From the NCBI GenBank assembly GCA_018819135.1, contig JAHJQK010000129.1:1-32038 (forward strand): DNA of 32,038 nt, given 5' to 3'. Shown here piece by piece: positions 304 to 24,086 of the stretch. Below the pieces are notes generated by a model. The model did no database searches. It was given only the letters and a program-made list of their open reading frames with translations, and was not told the origin of the DNA. Source of the stretch: Pseudomonadota bacterium (GTDB taxonomy: Bacteria > Desulfobacterota > SM23-61). The position numbers and the translations under genes are program-made. The first letter of the stretch is position 1, and each line of letters starts with the position of its first letter.

Positions 304-1404
304 ATGCATGATGAAAGCGTCATGAAAGCTCTAACCCAAAAAGGGGTCTCCCGCAGAGATTTTCTGAAGTTCTGTACCACCATGGCAGCTACTTTGGCCC
401 TTCCTTCTTCCTTTATCCCAAAGATTGCCGAGGCTCTCGAAAAGAAAGTGAAGCCGGTTGTTCTATGGCTGGAGTTTTCGGATTGTGCCGGGGATTCGGA
501 ATCCATGCTGCGGGCCACCAAGCCTACCATCGCGGAGATCGTTCTGGATGTGATTTCTCTGGAGTATCATGAAACCATTATGGCTCCATCGGGAAAAGCC
601 GCGGAGAAATCCAAAGCGGATGTCGTCAAGAACCTTAAGGGGAAATACATTGCCATTGTGGAAGGAGCAATCCCCATGAAGGATGGGGGGATCTATTGCA
701 CCATCGGCGGCCACTCGGCCCGGGACATCGCCAGAGAGGTTTGCGGAAATGCTATGGCCACCCTGGCCGTTGGTTCCTGTGCCTCCTGGGGAGGAGTCGC
801 CAGCGCCTCCCCCAACCCCACGGGATGTGTGGGCGTCAAAGAAGCAGTTCCCAATGCAACGGTGGTGAACCTTCCCGGCTGTCCGGTAAACGTGGAAAAC
901 ATCACCGCCACCATCGTTCATTTCTTAACTTTCGGGTCGCTGCCAGCGCTGGACAGTGACCTCCGTCCGCTCTTCGGTTATGGGAAGAGAATCCATGACA
1001 ATTGCGAAAGGCGCATGCACTTCGATGCCGGCCAGTTCGTAAGAAAATGGGGGGATGAAGGTCATCGTCTGGGGTGGTGCCTTTATGATTTGGGCTGTAA
1101 AGGACCCGAGGCCTATCACAATTGTCCTACGGTGAAGTACAATGAGGGGACAAGCTGGCCGGTCCAGTCCGGGCATCCCTGTTTTGCCTGCGCCGCCAGT
1201 CATAACTGGGATGTTATGGGACCGATCTACAGCAGGCTTCCCAACGTTCCGGGTGCCGGTTATCAGGTAACAGCAGACAAAATTGGTCTGGGCCTTGCCG
1301 CCGTGGCGGGTGCCGGTGTCGCAGCTCATGCTATTTTAAGGGGCATCCAGACCCACGGCCCCAAGGATGACCAAGAGAAAAAAGAGGAAAAGCCCAAAGA
1401 ATAA
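304..1404 (+). CDS. hyaA: [NiFe] hydrogenase small subunit, Tat-exported, proximal-cluster Asp variant
   Basis: Electron-transfer subunit of a group 1-type periplasmic uptake hydrogenase, 366 aa. The ATG at 304 follows the Shine-Dalgarno GGAGG; an upstream TTG in the same frame was not chosen because it would precede the Tat signal by 46 residues and overlap the putative promoter. The Tat motif SRRDFLKF lies at residues 16-23. Probable Fe-S ligands are C61, C159 and C193 (proximal), H231, C234, C259 and C265 (distal), and C274, C293 and C296 (medial). The usual CxxC at the proximal cluster is C61-A-G-D64, so Asp replaces the second Cys. The C-terminus has an Ala/Gly/Val-rich hydrophobic helix followed by a charged tail, as in membrane-anchored small subunits. 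Overall it resembles the Hyb/Hya families. The large-subunit gene follows after 12 bp, so the two are cotranscribed. Confidence 0.95.
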   Translation: MHDESVMKALTQKGVSRRDFLKFCTTMAATLALPSSFIPKIAEALEKKVKPVVLWLEFSDCAGDSESMLRATKPTIAEIVLDVISLEYHETIMAPSGKAAEKSKADVVKNLKGKYIAIVEGAIPMKDGGIYCTIGGHSARDIAREVCGNAMATLAVGSCASWGGVASASPNPTGCVGVKEAVPNATVVNLPGCPVNVENITATIVHFLTFGSLPALDSDLRPLFGYGKRIHDNCERRMHFDAGQFVRKWGDEGHRLGWCLYDLGCKGPEAYHNCPTVKYNEGTSWPVQSGHPCFACAASHNWDVMGPIYSRLPNVPGAGYQVTADKIGLGLAAVAGAGVAAHAILRGIQTHGPKDDQEKKEEKPKE

Positions 1405-1416
1405 GGAGGTTTAAAG

Positions 1417-3126
1417 ATGCCGAAAATTGCCATTGACCCCATCACACGGATCGAAGGTCACCTGAGAATTGAGGCCCAAGTTGAGGGAGGAAAAATTAAG
1501 GATGCCTGGTCGGCGGGCACGATGTGGCGGGGCATCGAGCTGATCGTCAGGAACCGGGATCCGAGGGAGGTCTGGGCTTTCCTCTCTCGGATATGAGGGG
1601 TTTGAACAACGGTTCACTCCACCAGCTCCGTGAGAGCTGTAGAAAATGCCTTAGGGATCACCATTCCGGACAACGCCCGGATTATCAGAAATTTGATTTC
1701 GGGGATTCAGTACGTTCAGGATCACGTGATTCATTTTTATCATCTCCATGCCCTGGATTGGGTCGATGTGGTCAGCGCCTTGAAGGCCGACCCCAATAAG
1801 ACCGCCGCCTTGGCCCAGTCTTTATCCGACTGGCCCAACGCCACCCCGAGTTATTTCAAAACCGTCCAAGGAAAGGTCAAAACTCTCGTGGAGAGCGGGC
1901 AGCTGGGCATCTTCGCCAACGGGTACTGGGGACATCCCGCTTACAAGCTTCCCCCCGAGGCCAACCTCATGGCCGTTGCCCATTACCTTGAGGCTTTAGA
2001 TTGGCAGCGGGATGTGATTCGGATGCATGCTCTTTTGGGGGCCAAGAATCCTCATCCTCAAACTTTCCTTGTGGGGGGGATGTCCGTTCCTGTTGACCCC
2101 AACAGCCAGAATGCCCTCAATGCCGGCAGTCTGGCCTTGCTGCAGAGTCTTTCCAAGAAGGCTTTGGAATTTGTTCAGAAAGTTTACATCCCGGACTTGC
2201 TCGCCGTGGCCTCTTTCTATAAAGAATGGGCCTCAATCGGCGGTGGAGTCGGTAACTATCTTTCCTATGGTGAATTCCCGAATGACAATTTGAGCAATAC
2301 GAAGAATTGCTGGCTTCCGGCAGGATTTATTCGCAACAAAAATTTGAGCAAAGTTGAGCCCGTCGATCATATGAAGGTGACCGAAGACGCCGCTCATGCC
2401 TGGTACAAATACAGTGATGGGGACGATAAAGCCAAACATCCCTGGGTGGGAGAAACCGTTCCCAATTACACGGGTCCAAAACCGCCCTATGAGTTCCTCG
2501 ATACCAACAAGAAATATAGCTGGGTGAAGGGAATCCGGTACGACGGCCTTTCGACCGAGGTCGGTCCCCTTTCCCGGATGCTGATTGCCTATGCTTCCGG
2601 GCATAAAAGAGTAAAAGAGGTGATCGACGGCGTGTTGAAGAAATTGGGCGTGGGTCCGGAGGCTTTGTTCTCCACCTTGGGCCGCACGGCTGCCCGGGGG
2701 GTGGAGACCCTGGTGACCGCGGAAATGTTGTCGGTTTGGGTCGGTGAACTCGCCGCCAAGATGAAAAGCGGAGATCTGCGCATCCATAATGGCGAGAAGT
2801 GGGATCCTTCCACCTGGCCCAGAGAGGCGAAAGGGTATGGTTTCCACGAAGCGCCACGCGGCTCTTTGTGTCATTGGGTCGTCATTCAAGACGGGAAGGT
2901 AGCCAATTATCAGTGCGTGGTTCCGGGTGGATGGAACTCTTCGCCCAGGGACGCCAAGGGGCAAAGGGGCCCTTACGAGGAAGCTCTGGTCAACACGCCT
3001 CTGGCGGACCCCAATCGACCGCTGGAAGTCTTGAGAACCATTCATTCCTTCGACCCTTGTATGGCCTGCGCCATCCACGTAGTTGACCCGGAAAGGAAGG
3101 AGCTCTTCAAGGTAAGAGCCTTGTAG
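1417..3126 (+). CDS. hyaB: [NiFe] hydrogenase large subunit with two in-frame TGA codons (probable Sec-x-x-Sec)
   Basis: Catalytic subunit carrying the Ni-Fe site, 569 residues if both TGA codons are read, which is a normal family length. The ATG at 1417 follows AGGAGG. The N-terminus has the family motif DPITRIEGH. At codons 60 and 63 (1594-1596, 1603-1605) TGA replaces the two Cys codons of the L1 motif: SRI-TGA-GV-TGA-TTVH. Before and after, the same frame gives uninterrupted hydrogenase sequence (SVRAVENALGI follows), so no frameshift is needed. The L2 motif keeps Cys: FDPC548-MAC551-AIH554. A 15-residue tail after H554 would be removed by the downstream protease. Annotation software would split this into a 59-aa fragment and a 498-aa ORF. 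Selenocysteine insertion is inferred from motif position, a SECIS-like hairpin and selA nearby. A pseudogene with two identical Cys-to-stop changes is the less likely alternative. Confidence 0.93.
1594..1605 (+). other. Two TGA codons at the nickel-ligand Cys positions (candidate selenocysteine sites)
   Basis: TGA 1594-1596 and TGA 1603-1605 are in the reading frame of the large subunit and flank Gly-Val. In the family this segment reads RICGVC, whose first Cys is a terminal Ni ligand and whose second bridges Ni and Fe. TGA is used as an ordinary stop by several genes here (for example the lipid kinase at 11797 and prmA at 26172), so genome-wide recoding is unlikely. Confidence 0.85.
1623..1639 (+). 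promoter_or_regulatory. Candidate bacterial SECIS hairpin
   Basis: CAGCTC (1623-1628) pairs perfectly with GAGCTG (1634-1639) around the five-base loop CGTGA, which has G at its second position followed by U in RNA. The loop begins 23 nt after the second TGA and 32 nt after the first. Bacterial SECIS elements are described as a stem-loop within the coding sequence about 16-37 nt past the UGA, with a G among the first loop bases, so one hairpin could serve both codons. It is short and unverified. Confidence 0.55.
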
Positions 3127-3135
3127 GAGGGAAAG

Positions 3136-3780
3136 ATGTCTAAAAATGTATATGTCTGGGAATTCCCGGTGCGATTGACCCACTGGCTGAATTTTCTTTC
3201 CATTCTTGTTCTTTCTTTCACCGGCATTTACATCGGCACCCCCTTTATGCATTCCCCTCCCGGAGAGTCTTCTCTCATGGCGATTATAAGGTTCTTCCAT
3301 TTTGTGGCTGCCTATGTCTTCACCGTGAGCTGTCTTCTCAGGCTCTACTGGGCTTTTGCAGGCAATGAGTACTCCCGCTGGCGGGAATTTTTCCCCGTCA
3401 CAGGTAGAAGGCGAAGGGAGATATGGGAGAATGTTAAGTTCTACATGCTCTTGAAGAAAAATCCTCCGCCGTCTATGGGACACTCATCTACGGCGGTTCT
3501 TTCCTACCTCGGTTTATTTTTCCTTTTCGTGGTGGAAATCATTACCGGTTTTGGCCTTTATGCCCAGAGCCACCAGGGCTTTTTCTGGACCCTCATGGGC
3601 GGATGGCTTCTATTCGTTTTTTCTTCCCCGACGGTGAGGCTGATCCATCATTTGGTCATGTGGCTCATTTTGGTTTTTGCCATCATCCATGTGTATATCG
3701 GCTGGCTGAACGATATCGCCGAAAAAAACGGGGTGATGAGTTCGATCTTCAGCGGCTATAAAACTGCGCATGAAGATTAG
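3136..3780 (+). CDS. hyaC: Hydrogenase b-type cytochrome subunit
   Basis: A 214-residue integral membrane di-heme cytochrome b of the HyaC/HupC type, which passes electrons from the periplasmic hydrogenase to the quinone pool. About four hydrophobic segments are visible, roughly residues 17-33, 50-72, 122-142 and 165-190. Candidate heme ligands are H16 (in RLTHW), H55, H171/H172 and H185. The ATG follows GGAGGG, and the gene starts 9 bp after the large-subunit stop. Its presence, with the Tat signal on the small subunit, argues for a membrane-attached enzyme facing the periplasm and for H2 oxidation linked to quinone reduction. Confidence 0.93.
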   Translation: MSKNVYVWEFPVRLTHWLNFLSILVLSFTGIYIGTPFMHSPPGESSLMAIIRFFHFVAAYVFTVSCLLRLYWAFAGNEYSRWREFFPVTGRRRREIWENVKFYMLLKKNPPPSMGHSSTAVLSYLGLFFLFVVEIITGFGLYAQSHQGFFWTLMGGWLLFVFSSPTVRLIHHLVMWLILVFAIIHVYIGWLNDIAEKNGVMSSIFSGYKTAHED

Positions 3781-4291
3781 AGTCTCTTTAATTGGCCTGG
3801 GAAACCTGTTGTTAAGGGACGAAGGGGTGGGGGTTCATGCGGTCGAGGCCCTCCGGGAAGATTTTACTTTTTCCGAAGACTTCCGCCTGCTGGACGGAGG
3901 AACCCTCGGTCTGGATCTTCTTCCCTTGATCGAGGGAATGGAAAAAGTCCTTTTTGTTGATGCGGTCGATTTCAAAAAAGCACCCGGGACCATTGCCATT
4001 ATCGAAAATGAAGACCTTCCCTCCTTTTTGGCGCCCAAGCTCTCCTTGCATCATGTCGGTCTTTCCGACCTCCTTTTCGCCTCGAGTTTTATGGGAACGA
4101 AGCCATCGCAAATTACCCTGATCGGGATCCAGCCGGAAAAGATCGAGATTGGCCTTACCCTGTCTGATATTCTAAACGAGAATTTTGAAAAATTATTAAA
4201 AACCATCTTAAAGAAACTCCAAGAGTGGGGAGTAAACTTTAGAAAAAAAACGAAGCAGGAGCCGTCCAATGTGCCTGGCTATCCCGTCTGA
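3770..4291 (+). CDS. hyaD: Hydrogenase maturation endopeptidase (HyaD/HybD type)
   Basis: A 173-residue nickel-dependent protease that removes the C-terminal tail of the large subunit once nickel is inserted. The N-terminus has the family signature GLGNLLLRDEGVGVH. Expected metal ligands are E18, an Asp in VDAVD (D64 or D67) and a His in the LHH sequence (H94/H95). The start overlaps the cytochrome gene by 11 bp, indicating translational coupling. The match between this protease and the intact cleavage site of the large subunit (after H554) suggests that the hydrogenase is expressed and matured. Confidence 0.92.
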   Translation: MKIRVSLIGLGNLLLRDEGVGVHAVEALREDFTFSEDFRLLDGGTLGLDLLPLIEGMEKVLFVDAVDFKKAPGTIAIIENEDLPSFLAPKLSLHHVGLSDLLFASSFMGTKPSQITLIGIQPEKIEIGLTLSDILNENFEKLLKTILKKLQEWGVNFRKKTKQEPSNVPGYPV

Positions 4292-4541
4292 GATTGTGGA
4301 GATAAAAGACCAAATGGCGACTATCGATATCTCGGGAGTTCGCCGGGATGTAAGTCTTCTCCTTTTACCAGAGCAGGCCATGGTAGGAGATTATGTGTTG
4401 GTCCACGCCGGCTTTGCCATTCATAAAATTGACCGGGAAGCCGCTGAGGAAGCTTTGAAGCTAATCGAGGAAATGGCCCAATTGGAAGCAGACAGGGGTC
4501 AGGAGACAGAATTAAGCATAACGGCTGAACATTCTCTTTGA
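4269..4541 (+). CDS. hypC: Hydrogenase assembly chaperone HypC/HupF
   Basis: A 90-residue HypC-family protein. It begins MCLAIP, with the conserved Cys2 that carries the Fe(CN)2CO precursor together with HypD and contacts the large subunit. The second conserved block is HAGFAIHKID (residues 46-55). It overlaps the protease gene by 23 bp. The C-terminal ~25 residues are acidic and poorly conserved. The other accessory genes (hypB, D, E, F) are not in this window. Confidence 0.95.
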   Translation: MCLAIPSEIVEIKDQMATIDISGVRRDVSLLLLPEQAMVGDYVLVHAGFAIHKIDREAAEEALKLIEEMAQLEADRGQETELSITAEHSL

Positions 4542-4587: not shown

Positions 4588-4932
4588 ATGCATGAAGTAG
4601 CCATCGCCTTAAGTCTTCTTGATATCGTTGAAAAAAAATGCCAAGAGGAAGGATATCGTTTCGTTGAATCCGTAAGGGTTCGGGTGGGAAGCGCCTCGGG
4701 TATTTTACCGGAGGCCTTTGCCTTTGCTTTCGATGCCGTCAAAAAAGGTACGCTGGCCAGTGACGCAAAATTCATCATCGACGTGGTGCCGCTCGGTGGG
4801 TTCTGTAACGGGTGCCAAAGCCATTTTGAAATGGAAGGAGCTTTTGTCCTTGAATGCCCTATCTGCGCCTCTCATTCTTTTAGGGTCGATAAAGGCCGTG
4901 AACTGCAAATCGTTGAAATGGAGGTCAATTAA
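4588..4932 (+). CDS. hypA: Nickel-insertion accessory protein HypA
   Basis: A 114-residue HypA protein that delivers nickel to the hydrogenase large subunit with HypB. It starts MHE, the essential N-terminal nickel-binding motif (His2), which fixes the start codon. The zinc site is C73xxC76 and C90xxC93, all present. The 46-bp gap from hypC is AT-rich and has no good Shine-Dalgarno, so translation may be weak or coupled. It is the last gene of the hydrogenase operon and converges on the sigma factor gene 34 bp away. No clear terminator hairpin is visible between them. Confidence 0.95.
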   Translation: MHEVAIALSLLDIVEKKCQEEGYRFVESVRVRVGSASGILPEAFAFAFDAVKKGTLASDAKFIIDVVPLGGFCNGCQSHFEMEGAFVLECPICASHSFRVDKGRELQIVEMEVN

Positions 4933-22649: not shown

Positions 22650-24086
22650 TCACTGCAGAGCTTGACGCAAATTTTCGAGAAGTTCTTTCTCCTCACTTTC
22701 GGCCACCGTTCTTAAGTCTAACAAAATTTCTCCTTCTTGTACACGAGCGATCACTGGGGGGTCGCTTTTTCTCAATCTTTCCTCCAAACTGGCCACGGAT
22801 GTTTTCAACGGGCGAAGGGCGATGACCCGGGTAGGGAGTCCCTGCAAGGGAAGGGCTCCTCCTCCTACGGGAGAAATTTCTTCTCTTATCTTCACCTGAC
22901 AGGAGGAAGCAAGGTCTCTGGTCAATTGGCGCTGAAGTCGCTTGACCCGGCGTTCCAGCTTTTCTACCGGGCAGGTAATCATGTTGAGTACCGGAATTCT
23001 TTCAGCGGCCTGCTCATGGTTCCAATATACCCGGAGAGTGGATTCAAGCCCCGCCAGAGTGAGTTTGTCGATCCTTAACGCCCGGTTTAAAGGATTCTTT
23101 TTTATGAGATCGAGGTATTTCTTCTGCCCCAGTATAATTCCCGCTTGCGGTCCGCCCAACAATTTATCACCGCTGAAGGTGATCACATCCACCCCCGTCT
23201 CTAAGGCTTCTTGGACCGTGGGCTCCTTGGCTATCCCGTATGGAGACAGATCCACGAAGCACCCGCTTCCCAGATCTTCCAGCACGGGCAATCCATTCGC
23301 CTGGCCCAAAGCAACTAAGTCCTTTAAAGAAACTTCGGCTGTAAAACCCAGGACCCGGAAGTTGCTGGTATGCACCTTAAGTAATAAAGCGGTCCTTTCG
23401 TTGATGGCCCGTTCATAATCCTCAAGGTGGGTGCGATTGGTGGTTCCGACTTCTACCAGTTGAGCTCCGCTTTTTTTCATTACATCCGGAATGCGGAAGG
23501 AACCTCCAATCTCGACCAGCTGGCCCCGGGAAACAATAACTTCTTTCCCTTCGGCCAGGCTGTTCAGAGCCAAAAAAACGGCACCGGCGTTATTATTAAC
23601 CACCAGGGCAGATTCGGCACCCGTAATCAGGCGGAGGATTTTTTCCACGTGTTCATGCCGTGAGCCGCGCTCGCCCGAGGTAAGATCGAATTCTAAGTTT
23701 GAGTACCCGCCGGCAATTTCCTCGATGTACTGCAGGGCTTCCGGAGCGAGCGGAGCCCTACCGAGGTTGGTATGCAGGACCACACCCGTGGCATTGATCA
23801 CGCGTCGAAGGGAAGGACGGGCGGTCTTGGTTATTTCCTCCTTTACGGCAGCCAGCAATTCCTCCCAGGCAACCCCTATGGAGGCGGCCTCTTGCAGGTT
23901 AGCGCTGTTTAAAATGGCTTGGCGCTTCTGCTCCATAATTCTCCGGATGGACCCGACAACCAATTCCTTGGAATATTTTTTTAAGTGAGCTTGAATTTGG
24001 GAATGACGGAGAAATTCATCGACCGCGGGAAGGGCTCTTAGGTACGGTTGTTTGTCTTCAGGCTCCATACCTCTGTTTTTCATCAT
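22650..24086 (-). CDS. selA: L-seryl-tRNA(Sec) selenium transferase
   Basis: A 478-residue PLP enzyme that converts Ser-tRNA(Sec) to Sec-tRNA(Sec) using selenophosphate. Visible landmarks are RVINATGVVLHTNLGRAPL, the VVNNNAGAVFLALN block, and the PLP lysine K308 in TFSGDKLLGGPQAG. Length and motifs are normal, so the gene appears functional. The ATG overlaps the stop of the gutted alcohol dehydrogenase (ATGA). No selB, selC or selD was found in this window. Its presence supports reading the TGA codons of the hydrogenase large subunit as selenocysteine. Confidence 0.97.
   Translation of the reverse strand: MMKNRGMEPEDKQPYLRALPAVDEFLRHSQIQAHLKKYSKELVVGSIRRIMEQKRQAILNSANLQEAASIGVAWEELLAAVKEEITKTARPSLRRVINATGVVLHTNLGRAPLAPEALQYIEEIAGGYSNLEFDLTSGERGSRHEHVEKILRLITGAESALVVNNNAGAVFLALNSLAEGKEVIVSRGQLVEIGGSFRIPDVMKKSGAQLVEVGTTNRTHLEDYERAINERTALLLKVHTSNFRVLGFTAEVSLKDLVALGQANGLPVLEDLGSGCFVDLSPYGIAKEPTVQEALETGVDVITFSGDKLLGGPQAGIILGQKKYLDLIKKNPLNRALRIDKLTLAGLESTLRVYWNHEQAAERIPVLNMITCPVEKLERRVKRLQRQLTRDLASSCQVKIREEISPVGGGALPLQGLPTRVIALRPLKTSVASLEERLRKSDPPVIARVQEGEILLDLRTVAESEEKELLENLRQALQ

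Follow-up and report, generated by a model that had tools for sequence, protein, structure and literature searches.

A hydrogenase gene with two in-frame UGA codons

Which residue is inserted when both cysteine codons of a hydrogenase's N-terminal nickel motif are replaced by UGA? The locus that raises this question lies in a window of 32,038 nt (the whole stretch of DNA analyzed, contig JAHJQK010000129.1 of assembly GCA_018819135.1) from a Pseudomonadota bacterium placed by GTDB in Desulfobacterota, SM23-61. When TGA is translated as a residue, positions 1417–3126 form a single open frame of 569 aa with no further stop. An earlier note on this DNA had described the frame as broken only by two TGAs at the N-terminal Ni motif, and this was borne out. 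The two recoded codons are TGA at 1594–1596 (codon 60) and TGA at 1603–1605 (codon 63), in the context LSRI-U-GV-U-TTVHSTSS, where both Cys positions are UGA. The C-terminal Ni motif, DPCMACAIH, retains Cys548 (TGT in the window) and Cys551, also as described.

With C substituted for U, the large subunit matches PF00374 over its full length (770.8 bits, 508/508 profile positions). Its best solved relative is 3myr (717 bits, residues 3–554), and the alignment places codons 60 and 63 on the cysteines of RICGVCT and codons 548 and 551 on those of DPCIAC. In the hydrogenase of D. gigas, the first Cys of each Ni motif is a terminal ligand of Ni and the second bridges Ni and Fe. We take codon 60 to be the terminal Ni ligand and codon 63 the Ni-Fe bridging ligand, by analogy with that structure. 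The features of the locus are as follows.

304–1404, plus strand: hydrogenase small subunit with Tat signal (TIGR00391, 430.7 bits, cut-off 179.5; TAT_signal_seq, 23.5, cut-off 16.7)
1417–3126, plus strand: hydrogenase large subunit, read through both UGAs (PF00374, 770.8 bits; 3myr, 717 bits)
1594–1596, plus strand: UGA codon 60, first Cys position of the N-terminal Ni motif (TGA in 74/142 distinct loci, always with TGA63)
1603–1605, plus strand: UGA codon 63, second Cys position of the N-terminal Ni motif (TGA in 95/142 distinct loci)
1623–1639, plus strand: predicted bacterial SECIS hairpin (compensatory changes, MFE -8.4, spacing 23/32 nt, synonymous-conservation peak)
3058–3069, plus strand: C-terminal Ni motif, Cys548 (3058–3060) and Cys551 (3067–3069) (TGC/TGT in 142/142 distinct loci)
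3136–3780, plus strand: Ni/Fe-hydrogenase b-type cytochrome subunit (TIGR02125, 172.8 bits, cut-off 121.5)
3770–4291, plus strand: hydrogenase maturation protease (TIGR00072, 144.2 bits, cut-off 47.45)
4269–4541, plus strand: HypC-type maturation chaperone (TIGR00074, 82.5 bits, cut-off 48)
4588–4932, plus strand: HypA nickel metallochaperone (TIGR00100, 88.2 bits, cut-off 88.1)
22650–24086, minus strand: selA, L-seryl-tRNA(Sec) selenium transferase, on the same contig (TIGR00474, 637.7 bits, cut-off 267.9)

By its layout (Tat small subunit, b-type cytochrome, protease, hypC, and hypA), the cluster is predicted to encode a membrane-bound uptake hydrogenase of the group 1 type, presumably feeding quinone. 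The genome bin (4.43 Mb, 222 contigs, 94.4% complete) also carries a second [NiFe] hydrogenase (L010) that is all-Cys and 44% identical. The bin is 8.5% contaminated. Two congeners, G002 and G003, have sequence aligning with both the operon and the neighboring sigma-factor gene downstream of it, so the contig fits the bin despite this value, and a contaminant contig was rejected.

Recurrence of the UGA pair among relatives

Relatives came from three sources: a scan of genome contigs, from which the 80 best of 586 encoding stretches were kept; 198 related genomes, 99 of them with matches, loci being taken from the best 30 matches; and 245 genomes sampled from the phylum to which G216 belongs (this genome carries L055, Nitrospiraceae), 90 of them with matches. 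From the third source 50 loci were typed, 30 plus 20 more chosen for one TGA, one TAG, or lower identity. A total of 161 loci were typed codon by codon, and 142 of these are distinct over codons 30–539, the window and L010 included. Classes were named by codons 60/63 as UU (TGA/TGA), CU (Cys/TGA), UC (TGA/Cys), and CC (Cys/Cys).

The homologs that the earlier note proposed to look for, with TGA or TGC/TGT at these codons, are numerous: 74 of the distinct loci are UU, 21 CU, 47 CC, and 0 UC. Every typed gene without TGA at codon 60 or 63 has TGC or TGT there, and Cys is likewise encoded by TGC or TGT at codons 548 and 551 in 142/142. No other in-frame stop was found within the aligned protein of the typed loci; a TAG at aligned position 562 in two CC rows lies beyond the C-terminal motif. 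The recurrence of the TGA pair is far beyond chance, and one carrier, L055, is a single-contig chromosome record. That UGA60 never occurs alone is a statement about typed loci, outside which stand the single-TGA rows of the 198-genome search (G117, G177:C99, G022, G061, G024, G044, and G171:C169), several TAA or TAG rows, and 6/35 two-TGA rows of the 245-genome search.

Gene calling under the standard code lists only 1630–3126 as an ORF in this frame, which is the shortened start that the earlier note had expected of annotations. This would suit a decaying pseudogene or sequencing errors, with a working protein beginning at 1630 (GTG, codon 72). However, the same two TGAs occur in 74 distinct genes, a protein begun at 1630 would be missing a Ni motif, and codons 1–59 are conserved (dN 0.055 versus saturated dS between the window and its congener L037). 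Strong purifying selection is also visible over codons 64–569 of the same pair (dN 0.067, dS 1.69). We consider this explanation extremely improbable, and refuted as far as sequence can refute it. A change of genetic code (TGA as Trp or Gly) was also rejected: TGA is the stop of 9 of the 23 window genes looked at, so there is no genome-wide reassignment.

Genes with UGA at codon 63 alone include distant relatives. Twelve rows form a second clade of the Nitrospirota sample (L166–L177, 47%–51% identical to the window), and three others belong to the window's own phylum (L123, L125, and L128, 52%–54% identical). Because CU rows span these groups, UGA63 is the common element and UGA60 occurs only on top of it. 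The presumed bridging position would thus be the primary Sec site, with UGA in every UGA-bearing typed relative.

The small subunit has a variation of its own. At 493–495 it encodes Asp at the second Cys position of the proximal cluster, and Asp or Asn occupies that position in 61/68 UU small subunits (7 keep Cys). The same substitution is found in 26/43 CC small subunits and is therefore not tied to Sec; an Asp cluster ligand is also present in the actinobacterial-type enzyme 5aa5. A third Sec in the small subunit was ruled out, as in-frame stops of the aligned small subunits occur only at their tails.

A predicted SECIS hairpin downstream of both codons

Downstream of the two codons, positions 1623–1628 can pair with 1634–1639 to form a stem of 6 bp closed by the loop CGUGA (1629–1633). 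The loop starts 23 nt past UGA63 and 32 nt past UGA60, and the hairpin folds with flanks at -8.4 kcal/mol. The bSECIS limits stated in a figure legend of PMC13188914 are a loop of 3–9 nt, a stem of 4–16 bp, a G in the first two loop positions, a distance of 16–37 nt from the UGA, and an MFE of at most -7.5. With flanks, the window hairpin lies within these limits after both UGAs, the 32-nt spacing of UGA60 being near the far end of the range; in a scan of bare hairpins it misses the energy limit.

Scanned with flanks, 56/60 UU and 8/8 CU loci of the first typed set pass after both codons (two of these eight CU loci repeat others). CC genes pass in 27/43 cases after codon 63 and in 9/43 after both, and random codons of UU genes pass in 96/595. 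Among distinct loci typed later, 13/14 UU, 15/15 CU, and 3/5 CC pass the flanked scan; six of the 12 CU loci L166–L177 place the stem nearer, at 16–18 nt. A looser energy limit (-6.5) admits all UU and CU loci, yet also 140/595 random codons. Without flanks, a stricter scan, hairpins within the limits were found after codon 63 in 41/60 UU, 3/8 CU, and 18/43 CC genes and after 18/300 random codons.

Synonymous codon use is constrained at the same place. Across 60 UU genes, synonymous codon identity has a gene mean of 0.43 and reaches 0.79 at codons 69–73, the highest five-codon window of the gene, within a peak spanning codons 65–73; no such peak at these codons was found in 43 CC genes. Between the window and L037, dS falls to 0.42 over codons 64–90 versus 1.69 over codons 64–569. 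When positions are ranked by mean stability, that of the hairpin is 4th of 520 in UU genes and 34th in CC genes.

Pairing was analyzed in an alignment (A1) of 66 rows, which divide by codon 71 into TCC (35) and TCG (31). The TCC version is paired in 94.9% of cells (≤53.5% when slid) and has 23 two-sided changes, values that 0/500 shuffles reach for either measure; the changes are A-U to G-C or U-A, G-C to C-G, and C-G to U-A. Two narrower counts for the TCC stem are not in excess: 133/500 shuffles match the three pairs that carry a two-sided change, and 490/500 match the five further pair types. The TCG version takes a different stem form, bulged or of 7–8 bp, that is paired in 94.8% of cells (≤52.4% when slid) and scarcely varies, with no covariation (0 two-sided changes among the 31 genes). 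Over all 66 rows the first stem is 80.2% paired. The 42 CC rows are 54.1% paired, a value reached by 92/500 shuffles, with a residual signal in the covariation score (reached by 25/500) and in further pair types (5/500). A single consensus fold for all UGA genes was tried and rejected; RNAalifold gave only three pairs because two stem versions exist. Rfam has no match at the place of the hairpin.

Two observations concern the surrounding sequence. A short alternative helix at 1611–1623 (A1 columns 21–23 with 31–33) also covaries and would compete with the predicted SECIS stem. Codon 59 (1591–1593) is ATA in 70/74 UU, 2/21 CU, and 5/47 CC genes, and codon 65 (1609–1611) is ACG in 70/74, 4/21, and 18/47, respectively, a bias that perhaps marks an extra element for the first UGA.

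The spacing bears on whether both codons are recoded alike. If only UGA63 encoded Sec, UGA60 would be passed by near-cognate readthrough or would mostly terminate translation, giving a regulated low yield. UGA63 has the nearer spacing (23 nt), and 21 relatives have UGA at 63 alone versus 0 typed at 60 alone. However, the 32-nt spacing falls inside the published range, and the residue aligned with UGA60 is a Ni-ligand Cys, kept as Cys by all typed genes that lack UGA there. We regard this explanation as quite improbable and favor Sec at both codons.

Selenocysteine machinery and a possible cysteine fallback

The earlier note's reading depended on selB, selC, and selD in the genome; all are present, together with selA, which lies ~20 kb from the hydrogenase on the opposite strand. 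Two selB genes (369 and 298 bits) and two selD genes, each with one in-frame TGA, are over cut-off, and two tRNA-Sec genes, both UCA, are over the gathering score (73.7 and 57.3 bits). On contig G000:C222 of this genome (L012, L002, and L020), a U73 UCA tRNA, a selB, and a TGA-bearing selD lie within ~4.4 kb. Canonical copies are scattered elsewhere, and the cluster could be either a genuine second set or contamination.

Among relatives, selB is over cut-off in 32/34 UU genomes (all but those of L069 and L084), 5/6 CU genomes (all but G003), and 12/16 CC genomes, one genome being counted twice, for L027 (UU) and L063 (CC). Its presence in CC genomes too means that selB does not separate the classes. 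UCA tRNA-Sec was identified in 28 of the 32 UU genomes other than the window's own. It was not found in G204, G208, G209, and G216, and nothing was over the tRNA-Sec cut-off in G208 and G216, among the candidates scored, which in most genomes were part of the total.

At least 11 of the 32 UU genomes also have a tRNA with a GCA anticodon and a U73-CCA end that is over the tRNA-Sec cut-off (L197, L226–L232, and L234–L236), and 10 of these 11 genomes have a UCA gene as well. We take these GCA genes to be tRNA-ReC, a Cys-charged tRNA that reportedly recodes UGA through SelB. Because at least 11/32 related genomes have a tRNA-Sec-shaped tRNA with a Cys anticodon, a Cys fallback is possible, and Sec and Cys readings of both UGAs may alternate with selenium supply.

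Taken further, the UGAs might be read mainly as Cys by such a SelB-delivered tRNA, making the enzyme an ordinary four-Cys [NiFe] hydrogenase. The GCA genes agree with this, as does the U73 UCA copy beside the second selB and selD in the window's genome. Yet UCA tRNA-Sec is present in 28/32 UU genomes, in 10 of the 11 with a GCA gene, and in the window's own genome, while 21/32 UU genomes have no detected Cys-type gene (weaker matches were examined in part, and the count of carriers is a lower bound). Moreover, plain Cys codons suffice without SECIS and SelB, as in the 47 CC genes. A mainly Cys reading is unlikely, and Sec at both codons is preferred.

Phylogeny of the hydrogenase

A tree of 108 rows was built by a quick method with SH-aLRT support, leaving out L105, L106, the partial L073, and the rows of the 245-genome search. 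UU rows in this tree are mostly records titled Nitrospirota, with seven in Chloroflexota (L069, L074, L076, L077, L080, L083, and L088) and two titled Deltaproteobacteria (L040 and L043), plus the window. The UU label requires 9 changes on the tree versus a shuffled mean of 35.7. One genome bears both a UU copy (L027) and a CC copy (L063) of this hydrogenase.

The window clusters with L025 and L037, which are CU and of the same genus (support 95), and also groups with L107, which is CC and of the same family (support 92, below the 95 mark); all three are 88%–89% identical to it. This group is nested in a mainly Nitrospirota set, a placement that fits transfer of the gene to the window's lineage from that set. 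L107 (88% identical) retains the window's hairpin unchanged, which fits a recent loss of its UGAs and suggests that the hairpin in L107 is likely a fossil SECIS.

Proposed mechanism and implications

We predict that both UGAs in the N-terminal motif of this [NiFe]-family large subunit are decoded as selenocysteine, with one hairpin serving both, and give this a probability of roughly 0.83. Two Sec are strongly predicted by the recurrence of the pair, the hairpin, its synonymous conservation and compensatory changes, and the sel genes with tRNA-Sec. The two Sec ligands of Ni that the earlier note inferred stand as a prediction, supported by recurrence, a SECIS-like hairpin, and sel genes; the assignment is qualified in at least 11/32 genomes by the possible Cys fallback.

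Both codons are likely served by SelB and Sec-tRNA recruited to the hairpin at 1623–1639. By homology, the Ni ligands would be two selenolates, one terminal and one bridging Ni and Fe, together with the two Cys of the C-terminal motif, and electrons would pass from the small subunit to the b-type cytochrome and probably on to the quinone pool. The second, Cys-type tRNA of at least 11 related genomes could read the same UGAs as Cys, perhaps when selenium is scarce. More tentatively, these genes may constitute a widespread, unrecognised class of respiratory hydrogenase with two Ni selenocysteines, one of them bridging, inserted through one hairpin. In many species, a dedicated tRNA could switch these codons to Cys once selenium is exhausted, and a single gene would then yield selenium and sulfur forms of the active site. 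We offer this wider proposal as possible, with more doubt than confidence.

To our knowledge, work on the role of selenium in [NiFeSe] hydrogenases has dealt with a single ligand position. In the present genes evolution seems to have explored the other motif, placing Sec at the bridging position and then at both N-terminal positions. Selenium might benefit the enzyme through H2 affinity, quicker re-activation, or repair after oxidation. UU, CU, and CC versions exist at 88%–89% identity within one genus or family, and they allow a direct test of how a bridging selenolate affects oxygen tolerance, re-activation, and H2 affinity. Double-UGA genes are frequent in the sampled Nitrospirota and present in some Chloroflexota, and because a standard gene call lists only the post-UGA part, they are probably shortened or missed in annotations. 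Two UGAs apparently dependent on one hairpin also provide a compact test of SECIS reach.

Comparison with known systems

Classical [NiFeSe] hydrogenases have one Sec, located where the C-terminal motif would otherwise have its first Cys, and the bacterial enzymes insert it by a SECIS-directed mechanism. The classical group (HysAB of Desulfovibrio vulgaris, Desulfomicrobium baculatum, and the selenium hydrogenases of methanogens) has in common with the present enzyme the PF00374 fold and, as predicted here, Sec as a Ni ligand. In contrast, the C-terminal motif here is Cys, both UGAs are in the N-terminal motif, and scores are below the [NiFeSe] NCBIfam cut-offs (NF033181, 531 versus 600; NF045518, 387.7 versus 780). 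We do not file it as classical [NiFeSe], since the defining C-terminal Sec was looked for and Cys was found.

Respiratory [NiFe] hydrogenases with a b-type cytochrome (3myr, presumably the Allochromatium enzyme; Hydrogenase-1, 4c3o and 3uqy) have the same Tat small subunit, cytochrome b, protease, hypC, and hypA. The present genes differ from them in that both N-terminal Cys codons are UGA and in the Asp or Asn at the proximal cluster of 61/68 UU small subunits.

Published tables give the Sec of hydrogenase subunits as UxxC, a motif that we assume to be the C-terminal one. FrhA and MvhA are listed as UxxC (PMC13188914), as are hydrogenase alpha subunits (PMC13188914 and PMC9312934). Selenoproteins with UxxU, by motif two Sec codons nine bases apart as here, are a Prx-like thiol:disulfide oxidoreductase, an FmdB-like protein, and a putative mercuric reductase in a table of PMC13188914; these are of other protein families, and no hydrogenase was found among the entries consulted in that table. 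In the accessible text of literature on selenocysteine hydrogenases, SECIS, and Cys recoding (including PMC13188914, PMC9312934, PMC3971608, PMC1242214, PMC4730141, PMC1794560, PMC1088965, PMC12013277, PMC9469722, and PMC8762117, with preprints and most subscription journals outside its scope), no report of an N-terminal-motif Sec in a hydrogenase was found, nor of a characterised enzyme of the double-Sec kind, in agreement with the earlier note. We regard the enzyme as a new variant of the [NiFe]/[NiFeSe] hydrogenases, in which Sec is predicted at the presumed bridging position and, for the majority of the UGA-bearing loci typed, at the terminal position too.
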